Shown: piece after piece, positions 41,558 to 51,340 of the stretch
How the letters are laid out: every line of letters begins with the position of its first letter
Numbering within the stretch: the first letter of the stretch is position 1
DNA from: Irineochytrium annulatum
Taxonomy: Eukaryota > Chytridiomycota > Chytridiomycetes > Chytridiales > Chytridiaceae
Assembly: GCA_027600665.1 (NCBI GenBank)
Contig: JADGJL010000038.1
Span: 1-62,371, forward strand
DNA: 62,371 bases
Reading direction: 5' to 3'
Made by a program: the position numbers and the translations under genes
The notes under the pieces: model-generated
Seen by the model: only the letters and a program-made list of their open reading frames with translations
Told to the model about the DNA's origin: nothing
The model's database searches: none

Positions 41558-44500
41558 TTAGGCGACAACGATGTCCGCCGGCACGGCAACCCTGTTGTTT
41601 TCGTCCGCCGCATCGGCCATATCAGCGTCCGCGTGCGCGACAACCCCCATGTGCTCGCCAAGTTTAACAGGCACGATGCACGATGGCGTGGTGGTAGAGT
41701 ACTGGGGGTTAAGATCAACCTCCGCACCCTCCAGGCCGTCCTCCGGCGGAAGGGTGAATCCTTCCCGGAGCCTAAAGTTGGAATCCAACATCCCACCACC
41801 AAGGCGATCCCACACCTTAAACGGCAGCGGCCGACGAGTGCTATAGTAGCGGTGCTCGCTGTTATTTTTGCTGCAAATAAATGAGAATGTGACGAAGGTA
41901 TCCCACAGCTGTACCTCTTGTCAAGGTTTTCTGTGAAACGCTCGTTGCTAAGATCGGAGACAGGAACCCTTGGGACAGTCGCGACGTAGAGCTTGAGACC
42001 GCAATCGTTACATAGAGTCTTAGGGCCAGTGGTCCCATTCCGCCAGCACACCGTGTCGGTCACGCCGCAGTCCTTGCAACGCCGGAAGTTGCCATGTTCG
42101 TCCACCTTATACCCTAACGTGACATCACCGTTCCCATCAACGCTTTCGTCGGATGACTTCAAGCGCTTCACGTCGCCGCCACCGTCACCGTTTATTTCAG
42201 ACATGCGCTTTCTCTTATTCTGAATGGCGCCCCCGGTTCTGTACAGGCCGCTACTGCCCCAGAGAGGCCATGGAAACCCAGGCGGGCAAATCCCGGTCGT
42301 CACATAACGGAGAGCCTTTCGAATTGACGTGTGATTCTTGACCGCTTGTTCGCCAAATCTTTTGCACAGGTTCGCAAAGTTGCCATCGGGGAGATCGTGG
42401 TCAAACGGCACGAGAGCCTTCAGTGATACGGCAGAGCTTATTGACATAGGATATCGTTACGGCTGAAAAGACGTCCTTACGCTTACCACGAGTTATCCTC
42501 AAAGTAGCGAACCACGTAGGAACCGGCTCCAGTTGCCTTTACTGTAAAGGAATTGTCGATCTCTTCAAGTGGGACGATCTGAACAAAGTTACGAACCAAA
42601 TGATTTGAAAACTCTGCGTACCATCCCCGGCCACCATACTTGGTTGTCCTTAACCTTCATGAACTTGTGGGGAACGACAAATATTGGGCTCTGGAGGAGA
42701 TCGTCAGCGAGACCCACCTTACGGGACACATACCCCTTCCGAAAGCCACGATTCATCGTTATTCGCCCATTCCTTCTCGAAAGCCTCCTTTACAGCCGGG
42801 CCAAGTTCCGGGCTCGCCTTCATAATGGCTTCGACGGCAGCCCTGAAATCATCCTCAACCTCTTGTATAGTCGAATATCCTCCTTCGGGAACGACGGATC
42901 CTACGACGTGAGACCCGTCCGGGTTCGGCGGCGGGATCTCGGGAATCGACAGCTCAAACCTGCCAGCAATCGACGCCAGAGTCGGGATCTCAGAGGGAAC
43001 TAGCGCAAAGTTATATATATCCATGACCATGTGCTTAACATACCGTAGGCAGCCTTTCCAGGGGGTTTGACAGTTGAAGACTTCCTTTTCTCTCCTCGCG
43101 GCATCTTCGGCTCCCGGTCGGCACCCCACTTCGCCCACCTCATCGCAACTGGCGCTTTCGCGCCGCTTGCATACGCCAACGCCTTTACGACGTCCTTCCG
43201 GGTCGCCCAACCCGGGAGGCACCGTGCCATGGTCGCTCCGGGTTCGACATCGGCATTCCCATCAAGCAACCGAAAGTTGTTGGCGCCAGTGATAATACCG
43301 TAGGCCGCGTTTGAAAAGTAACGGACGACGTAAGAGGGAATCTTGCGATCGCGCTTCTTATTAAGCTGCGGCATTGTCGAATCCATTTCCTGAAGCGGGA
43401 CTAAGATGGCTGCAGACCAGGAAGGTGGGTCCTTTGGCCCAGCGTCATTAACAAGAACAGGATAGCGGTGATCGTCTAGAGCCCCTTAGACGAATACAAG
43501 TAGCGGTTTCAAACTTACAATCCGTTAACTTCGACCCAGCCATTTTCTCAGCGCTAGGAACATCAACAACGGAAATGTGTTGCGCCATTTTCTGCAGTCG
43601 GCGCAGCACCCGACGTATCTTCTCCCGCTGTCCCACGGTAACGCGGGACGGGACTTCGGGCAACGGGGGAAGGATAATCTGCTCCTCCTCGCCAGCCGTT
43701 GTCGCTTAAAAATCGTTAAACCGTGAAATAATAAAAACTCCTACCGATTGTTCGCGTCCTCTCCGCCACAACAGTTGTTACTGCAATAAGATAAGCATGA
43801 CGTCGTCGTAGTACAGTAGCCAAAGTCATACTAACCCGTTGATTGGGAGTTCTTCGGCCTCCATTCTAGCTCTGGAGCCTTCTCGTCGCCTTTAAACAAA
43901 CTTCCGAGGATATGGGCGACAGAGTATACGCTGAAGGAGTTCCCGACCATGCCATGCCTCTGAATGCGGGAGGTCTCGGCCTCCGTGTAAAAATCAGGGA
44001 AGCCCATTAACCTTTCGACTTGACACCTTTTAGTCGATTACATTTCCGCACAACTTACGCTCGACCGGGTGGTAGCTGCGGCGTTTACCGTCGGCATACC
44101 ATAAGACGTTGAACCGGCTATCTGCCACGTGTGGAGAGCTATTACCCTATTTGGAAACCGTCAAATCTAGAGAAGAATTCTTAGTAATACCCTAGTGATG
44201 CAGTTCGCCTTAGCCAACTCGCTAAATAGGTAATCAGCAAGCTTTATGGGAACGATAAAGCGTACGGAATCGCCTCATCCAACACAATTTCGGACGCAAG
44301 CATAGGGCGGTCGGACAATGACGTTGGTATCTTCCTAATCGGAATGTTCGTCCAAAATAACCGGTTCCTACGGCAAGGCGAAAGGTCGACGGAGTCTTCG
44401 TGGGTTAATCTCTTTCGGTTAATCATATGAATCGTACCAACGGGCGTCGGCTGCACTCCGAGCTCCTTCGAAATAATGTCCATATCCGACTTCCTCATCC

Positions 44501-46191
44501 TTACGTTCTCAAACACAAACCATCTCGGCCTAACCTCCCGCAAAATGCGGACATACTCGAAGAAGAAGGACGAGTTCGTGCCCTCGACGACACCGGCTCC
44601 TTGACCGAGAAAACTCAAGTCCGTGCAAGGCGACCCGCCGATCATAAGATCCACGACCGGCAACCCGTCATCCCACCTCTGCAAAGGCGCGACTTCGTCG
44701 CCGTCCAAATGCTGCAACAGCTTCGGAAGATCTTTTTTAGCGGTAAACCGGCGAACATCGCCTAGCTGAACCACGTGTCCGTGATGGGAATCTGCGTAAG
44801 CGTCTAAGACATCGCAGGCAGGCTGGTCAATCTCGCTGCTGAGGTAGATCGCGGGCGTGACACCGAGGCGACGAAGAGCAACGTATGCGGCGCCGATGCC
44901 GTCGAAGAGAGACAGAACCGTTGGGTGTGAGCGCCACGGAGGGTTGTCCTTGATCTCGGCTTGGATTTTCTACTTCAAGCGTTAGCTCGCGGGCATCTAG
45001 CGGAGATGGCTGCGTACCACACAAGTCTCGCAGAACCATTCCGTATCGGGGAGGCTCTCGACATTCAAACACTTCAAATGGAAGACGGCAGGACATCCGT
45101 CGCAGCAGACGAGCTCGCCGTGTGATTTGCAAATAGCGCACGTCTCCTCGTTGTCATCTTCCGCCTCCTCTTCTTCGTCGGCATCGTAACTGTCACGAAT
45201 ACGGGATGCAGCCAGTGCTCGCAACACTTTAAGGCGGCATTGCGCTCGGGTGGGGCAAGCGTCTAAGAACGTAGTCAGCAATGTAACGATTGCCTTCCAC
45301 TACCTCTACAGTGGCAGCATTGCCAGTGATCGTCGGCCTCGGCAGCGTCCCAATCCCAACCTTCCCGTACAAAGCACGCCCTAACAGTAAACAATAGACG
45401 TGTTTAGCGTTATGTGCCCGGGAGGGTTCTGTATTGTTTCTGTGTACGTACTTGCAGACCACATTCTTGCACGGAGGCTTTGAAGCCCCATTCGTGGCCG
45501 GTGATGCCGGGCGCTCTCCATCTGCGGAGGCCTCATCGACAACGGCGGACTTCCGGCCCCGCTTGGAGATCTGGATTGGACCTTTGTCCTTCTTCTCGTT
45601 GGAGCACACCAACATATCGGCGCCGTCCTTCCCGCAGACGTGGCAGAGGTCGTTCGACATGTCCGTAGGACCCTCCTGCACATCCGCCGACTCGGAAGAG
45701 TTGTTCCGGCCTTTCCTCTTCAAGTACTGCTCCCTGAACACCCGTATTAGCCATGCAACGGCGCTGCCAAGCAGAAATGTCGTCCGGACATGGAAACAAA
45801 GCTTACTTGGCGAGCAGCGTCGGCACGATGTTCTGAGCGCGCAGTCAGTACAGGAAATGGCCCCCCGGGTGAGACGTACCTCGGCCTCGCGAAGGGCGAT
45901 AAGGGCGGCCTCCAGCTTGCACTCCATGACACAATTCTTCAGCTTCAGGTCGCGCTCCTTTTCCTTAAACATCTGCAGCGAGGTCTTGACCGGAGGGGCC
46001 GTCAGCGTCGCGGGCACGACACTGGACATGCGCGGTGCAGGCGACTGGACAACGCCGTTCCCGTTTACAATGACAGCACCGGTGCTAGCACGAACGGCTG
46101 GTGCCGCATCCGGCGATGGCTGGGCGTCCGCATTGTCCCCGGCTACGGCTCCGTCGACTGCCATGCGGTCTTCAAGGTGTTCTTCGGCCAT
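41558..46191 (-). CDS. DNMT3-type DNA methyltransferase with PHD, PWWP and GATA domains
   Basis: A cytosine-C5 DNA methyltransferase fused to chromatin readers, about 1,280 residues from more than a dozen exons joined by eye with consistent phases. N-terminal helical region to about residue 110; Cys-rich zinc module at 142-245 (LCHVCGKDGADMLVC, CKNVVCKACF, WQCCHCRDACPTRAQC); PHD finger at 272-313 (CAICKSHGELVCCDGCPAVF..WFCETC). Catalytic domain about 325-620: motif I VLSLFDGIGAAYVALRRLG, motif IV IGGSPCTDLSF with the catalytic Cys, motif VI VFENV, motif VIII RRNRLFWTN, motif IX NCITRGNSS, and MGFPDFYTEAETSRIQRHGM plus VGNSFSVYSVAHILGSLF (motif X). The GGSPC-x-DLS loop, FFFEYVRIL and the MGFP..YT..R..GNS ending are DNMT3-like, unlike DNMT1, DIM-2 or DNMT5. 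Two PWWP-like domains follow: SWSAAILVPLQEMD..SYVVRYF and VWWPGMIVPLEEID..SYVVRYF. A GATA-type finger CKDCGVTDTVCWRNG..LCNDCG comes next, and the protein ends at DIVVA. No spacer separates the parts, so I treat it as one gene. Confidence 0.85.
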
Positions 46192-46675: not shown

Positions 46676-48441
46676 TCAACCAGCAATTGATTTCCTTTTT
46701 TGTTTGGGCATTTGCTTGTTGGAAACTACGACTTTCCCATTAATCACCGCCTCCCTGTGACCCTTATTGATATCCGGGTGACTGAGGCCATACGCCTCTT
46801 TATCCTCAGCGACGTACGTCTCCCGTGCAGCAGCAACGGCAACTTCAGCTTCGATCTCCGTATCTTTATCTGGGGGTCGAAGGTGTTGAGCCGTTACTGG
46901 ATCCCTGATATCAAAAATCCGGTCGAACTTCTTTTGATAACCCGAGTAATGCACTTTGAGGAACGTCTTGTCCGAGTCCGTATACCGAATGTAGTACAGT
47001 ACCCTCGAGTGGTACCAGGTCTAACAACGTAACGGGTTAATCTCTAGTATTACACGAATACACTTACTTTGGGCTCCTCATTGTAAAACACGTCAATAGT
47101 ATCGCCATACTTCAGACGGGCATGCCACGGGGCATGTGGGTCGCCAACTTCCCAGCTCCCTGTCCGAATAAACTCGTCCGTGACTTTCTCAACCGTCATA
47201 TCGCCCTTTGTTCCAGGTTTCTCTGGGGCAACAGGTGGCTCCTCCGGCGCCGACTCCTCAGCAAGCGGCAACTCGTCGTGCTGATTGCGCGTGCGTCGCC
47301 TCTTCGGGCTCGCCTTAAGTGCGACCAAAGTTTGCGATTTAGATAAGCCCGCACTTCGAAGCTTCTTTTGACGCTGAGCCAAATCCATATCGTCATCCTC
47401 CGAGTTGTCCAAAGGATCATGGATCGTGACTCGACTCGATTTCGTTATAGATTTCTGCCTTTTCGAAGCATTTTTCCGCGCCGCCGGCTCGTCTTCTTCA
47501 TCAAATTCAGCTTCGTCTTCGTCGGGGGAATCAATCTCCGCATCTGGGTCAACCGAATGCGAGCTTCTGCGCTTTCGCTTCTTTTCCGACGCTGAATCGG
47601 ACTGCGGCTCCTCCGGCTCGGATACTTCCTTTTCGACCTCCATCGGTTCACGCTCTGGCGGCAGTATTTCCGTCTGCTGTAGCCCAGCCTCCTTCGGCGC
47701 GGCTTCCTGCGGCGCGGCCGCCTTTGGCTCGGCCTGCTTCGACTTGGCCAGCTCGGGATTGGCCTGCTTCGGCTTAGCATGCTTCGGCTCAATCTGTTTC
47801 GGCTCGGCGTCCTTCTGCTCAGCTTGCTTCGGCTCGGCCAGCTGCGGTCCTCTCTGCGCCGGCTCGGGCTGCTGCCGTCCTGGTTGCCGAGTCGCACTTT
47901 GCTTCGGCACCAGTTGCTTAGGTTCTCTATCCCCCGGCTCAGGCCGCTGCGGCTCCGGCTCTTGTTGCTCCGGCTCTTCCGCCTCCGCCCTCTTCTTCTG
48001 CAGCGGATGGGGACGCTCCGGTTCCAGCTCTGCCAATTCTAGCTGCTCCGATGCAAAGTCATCATCCATCTCCCGATCCTCTGCGTCCTGGGCCATCGGG
48101 TCCAACTGCGCCTGGCCCGTCACCGCAACCGCCACAACCGGCAACTCCTTCACGACGGCGTACTCAACACCAGACATCTCATCCCGCGTCGATGCTTCGA
48201 TGGCAGGGGAGAGAGCTCTGCTGGTGTCGACCGTCGCCCGATTTAGCGTCATATCCGGCATCGCGAAGAGCTCGTCAAGATCCTCGGTACGCGTCGTCAT
48301 TATAGGGGAGGGCATGAGAGATGTGGACGCGGGCGCCGCAGAGGTAAAAATCCGGGGAACGTCCGACCGAGGAGCAGCAACGGCGGGGTCCGGCTGATGT
48401 GTAAACGAAACTAAATCGCAACGCGACTTAGCTGCCACCAT
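46676..48441 (-). CDS. Tudor-knot/chromo-barrel protein with repeat-rich linker
   Basis: Near its C-terminus the protein reads LKYGDTIDVFYNEEPKTWYH, SRVLYYIRYTDSDKTFLKVH, YSGYQKKFDRIFDI. This is a Tudor-knot or chromo-barrel fold as found in MRG15- and MSL3-like chromatin proteins, where it contacts modified histones or nucleic acid. One intron (about 47023-47068) joins the two halves in phase. Before it lie an acidic/basic disordered region and about 20 imperfect short repeats of the type EPKQAEPK (about 47680-47960), then DDDMDLAQRQKKLRSAGLSK. The ATG at 48441 (MVAAKSRCDL) may not be a true start: it lies inside what could be a 40-nt intron joining this exon to the upstream Kelch/FN3 gene. 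The stop is at 46676. Confidence 0.7.
47680..47970 (-). repeat. coding tandem repeat, EPKQAEPK type
   Basis: Short Glu-Pro-Lys-Gln/His-Ala units repeat imperfectly in frame within the Tudor-knot protein. The DNA units are 12-15 bp and diverged. This looks like a flexible charged linker. Confidence 0.75.
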
Positions 48442-51340
48442 TATGGGGAAAAGTCAAGGAAAAGGAAATACCTATTTTGAGGGTGCCCGTCGTGTCTTCC
48501 CTACGGAGGGCGTACAAAGCGAACTTAAAGGGATCGCTCGGATACCCATTGCCGTTATCCGTGATGGCAAAGACACGGAAGCTTAGATTGACAACGACCT
48601 GATTTCCCGATAACGCTATCGTCGCTCCTGCACCGCGTTAGTAACAATAGATAGATGTTAACGTCGCAAACCTCGGCCTCCGTCTCTCTCGCGCCGCGAC
48701 AATGTATCCAACGCCTTGCGCCGATTCTCCATCAGCCTTTCATATGCCAACACCACAGCTGAGTTTTGCAAAAGCTGCGTCGCGGTGATTTCCGCAAAGG
48801 ATTCTTGGCCCCTCCAAATCTCCACCCACGGTGCTCCAAGCTGCGAAACGCCGTTCCCGGAGCTGTCGCGCTCCGATCCCAACTTTGAATAGACTTTGAA
48901 GCTGTCCTTCGCTGCGACACCATTCACAGCAACGATACGATCCAGATCTGATGGGTGCAGGTCAAGCATAGCGCAGCACTCGATACAATAGTCGCGGAAA
49001 ACTCCACCGCTCAATGCAACGTCCTTGCCAAACTTCCAGACGAGCTTGAAACTTTTGATGGCGCTCCCTTCATGTTGAGGTACAACGCTCGCTAATACGG
49101 GTTTCTTTGCTCTGCCCACTTTTACAATATAAGCAAACGCCCGGAAACAGATAAAAACGATGCTCACCTTCGTTCAGCATCTTGACCTCCGTAAGGGGCT
49201 TCCCCATTTTAGTGAGCGACTGCCGGTGCATCATCATCTCGGGACTCGGGTTCTGTGTCTGCATCAAGCTCTGTAGCGCCAACGAAGGAGTCTCCCCGAA
49301 AGCGTTTACGGCCACCAACGCCAAAGTATACCACCGTCCCGGTTCAAGCTTGAACGCATCCGAACTCCGCACTTCGAGGCGTCCCTTCATCGCAAAATCC
49401 TCGCAGATATGATGCCAATCCCCTTCAACCGTCTTGTGCGCGTCGTTCTTGCCTGCAGCTTTCAGCTCCCGAATCGAGATCCGGATTTTCCGATCGCTGT
49501 GAAATCTAAACGGGTCGACCCAGCTGAGGCTGATGCGGTCCGACCCCACGGAGTCGGTCTTTAACTCTCCGGGCGGGGGCGGCGTGCCCAGGTCACAAAC
49601 CCATGCATCATTCGCGAAATTTAACTTGGATCCCTCGACTCCCATCACGTGCAGGCCGGAGTTGTTATAACCGGACCTCCCACCGAAGATGTACATTTGA
49701 TTTAAATACTGCAAAGCGGCTAAGTAAATTTTCGATTGCGCAGGTAACGCTTACCATCACAGCCGAATGTCCGCTTCTCGGGGATGGAGAACGCGCACCT
49801 GCCTCATACAGACATCGCTTCCAGAAACCGCGAGCAATATCATAAACCCACAGATCGTTCGTGCACCGCCACCGGGATGACTGCAGCAGGGAATCATGAT
49901 CGATCCCCACGTTCTCCGCCTCCTCGGGTTCGTACAGCTTGGGATGCGGAGCGTACGTCTCGACCCAGCCGCCAAAGATCACCATGTGGGGACCCTGCGG
50001 CGCACCCCACAGAACCGCGCTGTGCATCGAACGCCCAGGAGGCTTCTCGCCCTCGGGCTCCACCTTGAACCACGTCACGTGGCCTATAAATCCAACTTAG
50101 CAAAATCAAGCGATTTCATAAAAACAAGTTGCACTGACCATTAGGCTTAATGTTCAAGTAGAATACATCATTAGATCTCTCCACACGAAGCTTGTTATCA
50201 GACGTCCGGAGCGTCTCATGCATCCCGCCGAACACGATAATCTTCCGCCCTGCTCCCTTAGAGTTCCCCGGGTGGTAAAGCGCCGAATGAGACTCGAGCC
50301 GGTACGCGCGCTGGCTGCTGTCGTGAACGGGCAGGCTCCACCTCCGCGTCTTCAGGTCAAAAACGTGCAGTTCGTTATAGTCCCGGCCGTCAACGAGACC
50401 GCCGTACAGATAAAGGCAGGGATGCTCGTCCGAGTTGGCCAGCGGAGGGACGTACGTCAAGGTGGAGCCGATAGCGGGCCGTGGAGCCAGTCGGGTGCCA
50501 TCCTTATTGGTCTCCTCAGGGTTTATTGGGGTGAGCACGGTGATAGTGTCCGTAAAGGCGTCGTATTCGAGTATCTTGTAGCAAATGACACATTAAAATT
50601 CAAACTCGTTTGCAAAGGTCATTTACTCACCTCATCTGACGCCTGACTCTTCCGAGCAGGATTTGACGGAAGTCCACCAAAAATGTATACCTTCGACCCA
50701 TGCGAGCAACACCCAAAGGCAGCCTTCGCCTTCTTCGAAATGGCGTCATGGTTGCGAGATCTGCCGTTGGAAGCAGATTTTGTGGGAAATTTGGCGTAGT
50801 TCGGGTCCGATGCCACCAGCGGATGCCGACGCGTCCATCGCCGCGACCCTGGAACAGATTAAGCGAATTAGACTACGCATGGAGAAAAAAAGAACAAAAC
50901 GTACCGAAGTCCAACGAGTGCACTTCGTTTCGAATCGTCTCCCCATCGCTCCCCCACAACATTAGCATCTCCGTCGCCAGCTTCCCATTAGCCTCATCCA
51001 CCACCAGGTCCTCCGGTCTCGCGATCCCGTTCCTCACGGATGTGAACTCCTTCCGGTCGTCCTCGTCCACTTTCCTCCTCTCCTGCTCCCTGCTCAACAC
51101 CAGTGCGCACTTGTAACCATGGCACGCGAAGTCGGGCGTCTCGTCCGTCACCGAGAGGCTCGTCCAGATGGCCGAGGGGCCCTCCGAGTGAATGTGTGGA
51201 ACGACGGTGTTGTTCTCGGAAGAGCCGTTCTTGAGCGCGGCCTTCTGGTTGACCTCCGCGGCCAACTGGTCGACCGCACCTTTCGGCTGGTGCTCCTGGA
51301 GAGCTCGCGAGTTGCGCCGGGACGGGCTGCCGGTGGTCAT
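48431..51340 (-). CDS. HCF-like protein: Kelch propeller plus FN3
   Basis: Host-cell-factor-like proteins use a Kelch beta-propeller to scaffold histone-modifying complexes. After an N-terminal tail (MTTGSPSRRNSRALQ, start 51340; no upstream ATG in frame), Kelch blades appear in order: KVYIFGGLPSNPA, CLYLYGGLVDGRDYNELHVF, KIIVFGGMHE, HMVIFGGWVETY and QMYIFGGRSGYNN. FN3-type segments follow: APPPPGELKTDSVGSDRISL-like sequence near 49570, WYTLALVAVNAFGETPS and, in the last exon, VVVNLSFRVFAITDNGNGYP. Introns carry good GT..AG ends; one has a TACTAAC-like branch site (about 48630-48640). After TGTLKI (48480) the frame either runs to a stop at 48430-48432 or splices by a 40-nt intron into the Tudor-knot exon. 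In that case both entries are one gene spanning 46676-51340. Confidence 0.82.

Follow-up and report, generated by a model that had tools for sequence, protein, structure and literature searches.

Do fungi have a DNMT3-class DNA methyltransferase? The question is raised by a single gene of Irineochytrium annulatum, a chytrid of the Chytridiales (Chytridiomycota). The gene lies on contig JADGJL010000038.1, contig C414 of the 26.9-Mb assembly. The whole stretch of 62,371 nucleotides was analysed and is called the window here. The gene is best read as a chytrid DNMT3-class DNA cytosine methyltransferase, predicted to add new 5-methylcytosine and likely steered by the PHD and PWWP domains that it carries. 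A rough probability for this reading is 60%.

The gene is of interest because surveys, in the excerpts used here, hold the lack of DNMT3 to be a fungal trait and ascribe fungal 5-methylcytosine to DNMT1-type enzymes and DNMT5. The relevant passages of a 2026 review state that no canonical DNMT3 is retained in any surveyed fungus (PMC13297926). Those of a 2021 review have DNMT3 missing from all fungi (PMC7862722), and those of a 2023 study with a panel of 34 fungi describe fungi as being without it (PMC10538959). In the corresponding parts of a 2025 paper, DNMT3 goes back to the eukaryote ancestor and is typically missing in fungi (PMC12344493). The preliminary description of this locus had likewise placed such an enzyme outside the described fungal set. 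No prior report of a chytrid DNMT3 gene was found in the open-licence literature so far as its text was available, survey figures and per-species supplementary tables being outside that scope.

The preliminary description gave the position of the gene correctly but no strand. It runs on the minus strand, from an ATG at 46191 to a stop at 41558. A first gene model joined 17 exons into a single open frame of 1290 amino acids. Alignment with relatives then brought out an in-frame intron (44437-44396, 42 nt, GT-AG), which splits off an 18th exon and leaves a corrected protein of 1276 amino acids. It is read as an intron because the 14 residues it encodes are absent from the aligned relatives (one of these, P0005, is blank there). 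The score against DNMT3A is 87.6 bits for a longer query that keeps the 14 residues, and 110.3 bits for the catalytic domain alone with the residues removed.

The orthologue from Phlyctochytrium planicorne (P0121) maps to the gene exon by exon. On the window contig lie 13 of its 15 genome matches, and the other two are to its PHD finger only; this search found one locus of the gene in the genome. A deposited hypothetical protein of I. annulatum, HK101_007548, is 100% identical across the searched region. The deposited model of this species, P0001, reads through the 42-nt intron and leaves out exons that encode parts of the protein in the Cys-rich finger and the PWWP domain. We infer that the 18-exon model is the one spliced in the cell. 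Retrotransposon-borne DNMT3 genes occur in dinoflagellates and charophytes, according to the part of PMC5890265 used here. Such a nature is not supported for this gene, which has one locus and 18 exons and whose protein lacks a reverse transcriptase domain.

The catalytic motifs quoted in the preliminary description are all there: LSLFDGIG, GGSPCTDLS, FENV, RNRLFWTN and MGFPDFYT...R...GNSFSV. In the motif table, motifs I to X stand in their normal order, with the catalytic cysteine, ENV, RxR and GNS intact. To assign a class, the corrected catalytic domain was compared with solved structures at E up to 10, and the best 60 of 87 matches were considered. Full DNMT3A/B catalytic chains rank first, from 1.2e-30 (DNMT3A) to 2.6e-28, and DNMT3B splice isoforms score 1e-20 to 4e-20. 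Lower down are plant DRM2 (8e-20), the bacterial methyltransferases HhaI (9e-10) and HaeIII (2e-7), and DNMT2 (7e-4). There are no chains of DNMT1, DIM-2 or DNMT5 among these 60; the comparison took in these three and DNMT2, with RID/Masc1 sequences outside it.

The known fungal enzymes (DNMT1/DIM-2, RID, DNMT5) share the C5-methyltransferase fold with the chytrid protein. Pfam finds no BAH, RFD or SNF2 domain in the window protein, however, and with DNMT3A/B at the top of the 60 ranked matches and DNMT2 at only 7e-4, membership in DNMT1/DIM-2, DNMT5 or DNMT2 was rejected. A search for a UHRF1-type SRA domain gave no match but is uninformative, as the control likewise gave none. Membership in DNMT3 by catalytic domain, as first proposed from the motifs, is well supported at the level of sequence. 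An AlphaFold model of the chytrid orthologue P0002 is supporting evidence only: it has low confidence (mean pLDDT 51) and was built on a deposited protein without the GGSPC stretch, and the best 50 of its 702 PDB matches are all DNMT3A or DNMT3B entries.

The preliminary description did not extend to the other methyltransferases of the genome, to the companion domains or to the chytrid relatives. DNMT1-class, DNMT2 and DNMT5 genes stand separately beside the DNMT3-class gene. The DNMT5-type gene (G000:C694:5373-10129) has a catalytic exon that matches Cryptococcus Rad8/DNMT5 at E 2.7e-53, with SNF2 pieces downstream on the same strand and contig. The DNMT1-class gene (G000:C831:20043-23696) matches at 9.3e-13 on its C-terminal part. 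A further methyltransferase gene we take to be DNMT2, going by its motifs. The open reading frame (ORF) of the DNMT1-class gene has an apparent motif IV of GGLCCTSWS, not the PCQ form, and this gene could be atypical or inactive. An organism in which DNMT1-class, DNMT3 and DNMT5 enzymes coexist is useful for dissecting the role of each class.

Three protein searches (best 120 of 1304, 120 of 1227 and 120 of 215 matches) gave mostly unnamed metagenome proteins. Among the matches listed, those named as fungal all come from chytrids, with graded identity, in five species beyond I. annulatum: Phlyctochytrium planicorne, Chytridium lagenaria, Chytridiales sp. JEL 0842, Blyttiomyces helicus (two entries) and Thoreauomyces humboldtii. 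These cover the Chytridiales, the Spizellomycetales and one unplaced genus. This distribution rests on the matches listed and on deposited gene models, and is not proof of absence in other fungi.

The catalytic domain is 77% identical to that of P0121, 69% to P0002 and 61% to P0003, and the linker that follows it 43%, 36% and 18% respectively. Other conserved parts are the short GATA finger (79% with P0121) and the C-terminal tail (75% with P0002). On these comparisons, this is a real and conserved DNMT3-class gene family of chytrids. One of the Blyttiomyces helicus proteins, P0004, has GGSLSEEQA in motif IV instead of GGSPC, while P0122 from the same species has GGSPC. Either the gene model of P0004 is faulty, or the protein is a partner without catalytic activity, reminiscent of DNMT3L.

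These relatives also bear on whether the gene belongs to a fungus at all. A non-fungal genome contaminating the assembly would explain it, but no point in favour of this was found. The orthologues of graded identity in five other chytrid species argue against it, as do the window contig's ORFs with PIGO_PIGG and SAP domains. The contig is fungal. Contamination was therefore rejected as highly improbable, in line with the earlier expectation.

The order of domains in the protein is a Cys-rich finger, a PHD finger, the catalytic domain, a PWWP domain and a GATA finger (Table 1). The P0121 protein has the same four Pfam domains in the same order and is of the same length, 1276 amino acids. Pfam finds no GATA match in P0003. 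As an architecture for this family, the combination is new in the sense that it was not met in the portions of the literature surveyed.

Table 1 Features of the DNMT3-class gene in the window, in order of transcription.
Feature	Position	Strand	Evidence
Whole gene, 18 exons, 1276 aa	41558..46191	-	Exon joining; exon-by-exon match of P0121; identity to HK101_007548
Cys-rich zinc finger, limits approximate, weakly zf-4CXXC_R1-like (CDCA7-type)	45252..45648	-	21.8 bits, insert cut out
PHD finger, nearest to PHDs of CHD4/AIRE/NSD2	45018..45155	-	PF00628 E 3.2e-7; PHD-1st_NSD 6.5e-5
DNMT3-class catalytic domain, motifs unpermuted	43888..44927	-	PF00145 E 7.5e-24 (intron residues still in); PDB matches; motif table
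In-frame 42-nt intron (GTACGATT...CACGAAG)	44396..44437	-	14 residues absent from relatives; read through in deposited model
Exon 12 conserved region, degenerate-PWWP-like by eye only	43044..43484	-	46% identity to P0121, residues 701-860
PWWP domain, C-terminal of catalytic domain	42394..42658	-	PF00855 E 3e-10; P0121 1.6e-9
GATA-type zinc finger	41992..42078	-	PF00320 E 3.1e-8; P0121 5.6e-9

Not all of these parts are equally firm. The Cys-rich region reaches its score against zf-4CXXC_R1 (cut-off 22.7 bits) only with a low-complexity insert removed, and is not listed with the insert in place. The natural stretch in P0121 scores 10.7 bits (E 0.64). The name of a CDCA7-type zinc finger was therefore left as weak. 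A PDB search with the region gave no zinc-finger protein of the CDCA7 kind and one chance-level match. The region itself is 60% identical to P0121, 53% to P0002 and 32% to P0003. A separate protein of the genome (G000:C163:14296-14412) matches zf-4CXXC_R1 at 45.3 bits, above the cut-off. The PHD finger finds CHD4 (3.4e-17), AIRE (1.8e-14) and NSD2 (2.4e-14) among the best 60 of its 75 PDB matches. The conserved region in exon 12 has no Pfam match, so its PWWP name is by eye only.

The locus could also be two genes: a PHD-DNMT3 gene with its end near 43830, followed downstream by a PWWP-GATA gene of its own. The linker past the catalytic domain is the less conserved part (43% to P0121), and P0004 and P0005 are shorter and lack PWWP and GATA matches, though these two models look incomplete. 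On the other hand, P0121, P0002 and P0003 are each predicted as one chain through the region from catalytic domain to PWWP, and no stop interrupts the joined frame. Two genes are quite improbable.

Animal DNMT3A/B have the solved catalytic domains closest to that of the chytrid protein (E 1e-30), which shares with them a complete motif set, and PWWP and zinc-finger domains of the reader kind. The animal order, however, is PWWP, ADD, catalytic domain, and the chytrid order is PHD, catalytic domain, PWWP, GATA, without a match to an ADD model. Where animal DNMT3 has its ADD, the chytrid protein has a PHD and a Cys-rich finger. Lacking an ADD and a PWWP at the N-terminus, it is not of the animal DNMT3A/B type by its domain content. 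Plant DRM2 is related to DNMT3 and gives the second-best solved matches, but its motif blocks are permuted and those of the chytrid are in normal order. Barley DRM2 also has PF00627, which the chytrid protein lacks.

What would such an enzyme do? An intact catalytic set and a catalytic domain much better conserved than the linker (77% against 43%, with P0121) argue for an active enzyme, and the reader-type domains flanking it argue for chromatin-guided methylation. The PHD fingers of CHD4 and AIRE recognise histone H3 when its lysine 4 carries no modification. By analogy with related domains, the chytrid PHD would do the same, as the ADD domain of animal DNMT3 does. For the PWWP domain, the expected ligand would be nucleosomal DNA or methylated H3K36, and the GATA finger would supply a sequence-specific DNA contact. 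The likely result would be de novo methylation at a distance from active promoters; the genome's DNMT1-class and DNMT5 enzymes would then perpetuate the new methyl marks. Activity, de novo mode, the histone marks read and this division of labour are what we infer from the domains.

Several observations weigh against this reading. The PHD finger is also NSD-like, and in P0121 the better Pfam PHD model is PHD-1st_NSD; the histone target is therefore a guess. The PWWP domain of P0121 matches a solved PWWP domain only at a borderline E of 0.068. The ADD models PF17980 and PF21255 are absent from the window protein, yet are detected in an insect DNMT3 used as a control (P0253). Finally, there is no general CpG depletion: nine background stretches, three of which come from the window contig, have observed/expected CpG ratios of 1.08-1.16, and for 15 reverse-transcriptase loci, of which two overlap, the range is 0.76-1.26. 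The lowest ratios, 0.76 and 0.86, are those of reverse-transcriptase loci with low GC. A CpG deficit is the usual trace of sustained, heavy CpG methylation. The lack of a general one suggests that methylation is light, recent, non-CpG or limited to a stage, or that there is none. In favour of the reading, 5-methylcytosine on transposons is described for another chytrid, Spizellomyces, in the part of PMC12695648 used here.

A chytrid DNMT3 with likely histone-reader domains is a candidate for a dedicated de novo enzyme in fungi. With it, one can test whether DNA methylation became coupled to histone marks before animals arose.

Where the gene came from was addressed with trees of the catalytic domain. 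The main tree has 45 rows and 273 columns, was computed under LG+F+R4 and is rooted on the I. annulatum DNMT2. Its phage and prokaryote rows began as 28, picked by script from 313 of 327 proteins on motif, length (<=560 aa) and low word overlap, after 14 eukaryotic proteins had been set aside. The pick was adjusted to 32 rows: P0006 was split into halves, P0014 and P0123 halves were added, and a 68-residue piece of P0243 was dropped. The Thoreauomyces protein P0005 (an incomplete model) and a DNMT5 piece were taken out ahead of tree building, and P0001, P0022 and P0285 were not included. Reduced trees also leave out the DRM rows, P0004 and P0123. The phage sample is biased toward close phages because the source lists were ranked by likeness to the chytrids. 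Non-chytrid eukaryotic DNMT3/DRM proteins make up six rows only.

In the main tree the chytrid proteins are monophyletic (97.5/100) and sister to the DNMT3 of Galdieria, a red alga (99.9/100; 100 under the posterior mean site frequency (PMSF) mixture model C20). Both lie within a clade that also takes in animal DNMT3, DRM and a single eukaryote-like protein from a metagenome (89.5/97). Support for the eukaryotic DNMT3/DRM clade is 58 under PMSF-C20. Without the permuted DRM, the eukaryotic group has 34.6/38 under LG+F+R4, or 84.9/93 minus the metagenome protein; under PMSF it has 91 and is nested among phage rows.

The approximately unbiased (AU) test on the maximum-likelihood (ML) tree and five constraint trees gives p-values of 0.83, 0.25, 0.31, 0.44, 0.13 and 0.25. 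The fifth tree puts Galdieria inside the eukaryotic group and the chytrids outside it; this tree alone is excluded by bp-RELL and c-ELW, though not by AU. AU thus rejects no alternative origin, a phage origin included. ML placement favours eukaryotic DNMT3. The preliminary description had left the choice between retention and acquisition to a phylogeny; the ML tree leans towards the grouping with eukaryotic DNMT3/DRM, and retention and acquisition both stay candidates. The origin lies between retention, algal transfer and a phage origin, the last being less likely.

Retention is a tentative reading, with a little less than an even chance. DNMT3 would have been kept from the base of the fungi, with chytrids retaining an ancestral set of DNMT1, DNMT2, DNMT3 and DNMT5. 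The PHD-catalytic form would be ancient and common to red algae, and the animal ADD-DNMT3 a later rearrangement.

It is possible, if rather doubtful, that an ancestral chytrid instead obtained the gene from an alga with a red-algal-type DNMT3. Chytrids parasitise algae, the sister pairing with Galdieria is strong in both analyses, and a PHD finger stands ahead of the catalytic domain in both lineages (in Galdieria at E 1.3e-4, slightly under the cut-off). The identity to Galdieria is only 39%, however, and Pfam does not find PWWP, GATA or a Cys-rich finger in its protein (P0021). AU also keeps a tree with the chytrids beside animal DNMT3 and apart from Galdieria (p 0.44). With orthologues in Chytridiales, Blyttiomyces and Spizellomycetales, such a transfer must be ancient. 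The sister pair may also reflect sampling, since few protist DNMT3 are in the tree. As excerpted here, a 2023 paper reports DNMT3 in Galdieria and Cyanidioschyzon near the dinoflagellate forms, and dinoflagellate and Goniomonas DNMT3 near the red-algal ones (PMC9998398), which again speaks for transfer.

The PHD-like stretch in P0021 (Galdieria partita) scores 22.4 bits, where the cut-off is 24. It contrasts with a survey's statement that the DNMT3 of microalgae have no chromatin domains. In the sections used of a 2025 paper (PMC12344493), protist and algal DNMT3 come without companion domains.

An unlikely third origin is that the catalytic domain was acquired early in chytrid history from a phage or bacterial methyltransferase, and is DNMT3-like in its working only. 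Among the matches listed, phage and metagenome methyltransferases do score at least as high as animal DNMT3 against the chytrid domain. AU keeps the trees with chytrids plus Galdieria (0.25) or chytrids alone (0.31) among phages, and one reduced tree has the eukaryotic group there. Against this stand the ML clade with eukaryotic DNMT3/DRM, for all its lower figures elsewhere, the many introns, and the PHD directly ahead of the catalytic domain, as in Galdieria. Nor did the collections scanned yield a close donor: the best segment is 37% identical in viral contigs (best 80 of 322 loci, range 29-37%) and 39% in prokaryote genomes (best 80 of 270 loci). The phage DNMT3-like proteins listed have PF00145 and in some cases intein-type domains; their precomputed domains include neither PHD nor PWWP nor GATA.

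Two of the collected proteins have unusual arrangements of their own. P0233 (metagenomic, 803 aa, probably eukaryotic) fuses a HIRAN domain to a DNMT3-like catalytic domain, an unusual pairing. P0018 (phage-like, 924 aa) has tandem DNMT3-like methyltransferases, of which the second copy carries, at its catalytic GGSPC, an insert of the Hint/intein type.

Some features elsewhere stand apart from the methyltransferase. Window positions 46676-48453 hold a neighbour gene, also on the minus strand, whose chromo-like match to MSL3 is weak (E 0.029) and which might encode another chromatin reader. The first 2000 positions of the window have a strong AT skew of 0.369, unlike the remainder. Two reverse-transcriptase loci, L099 (G000:C1 near 324776) and L103 (G000:C657), have a GC content of 0.31 and 0.35, far under the rest of the genome, and could be organellar or foreign. 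Locus L094 has, at 240-760, dense short degenerate tccgatccg-like repeats adjoining a reverse-transcriptase ORF.

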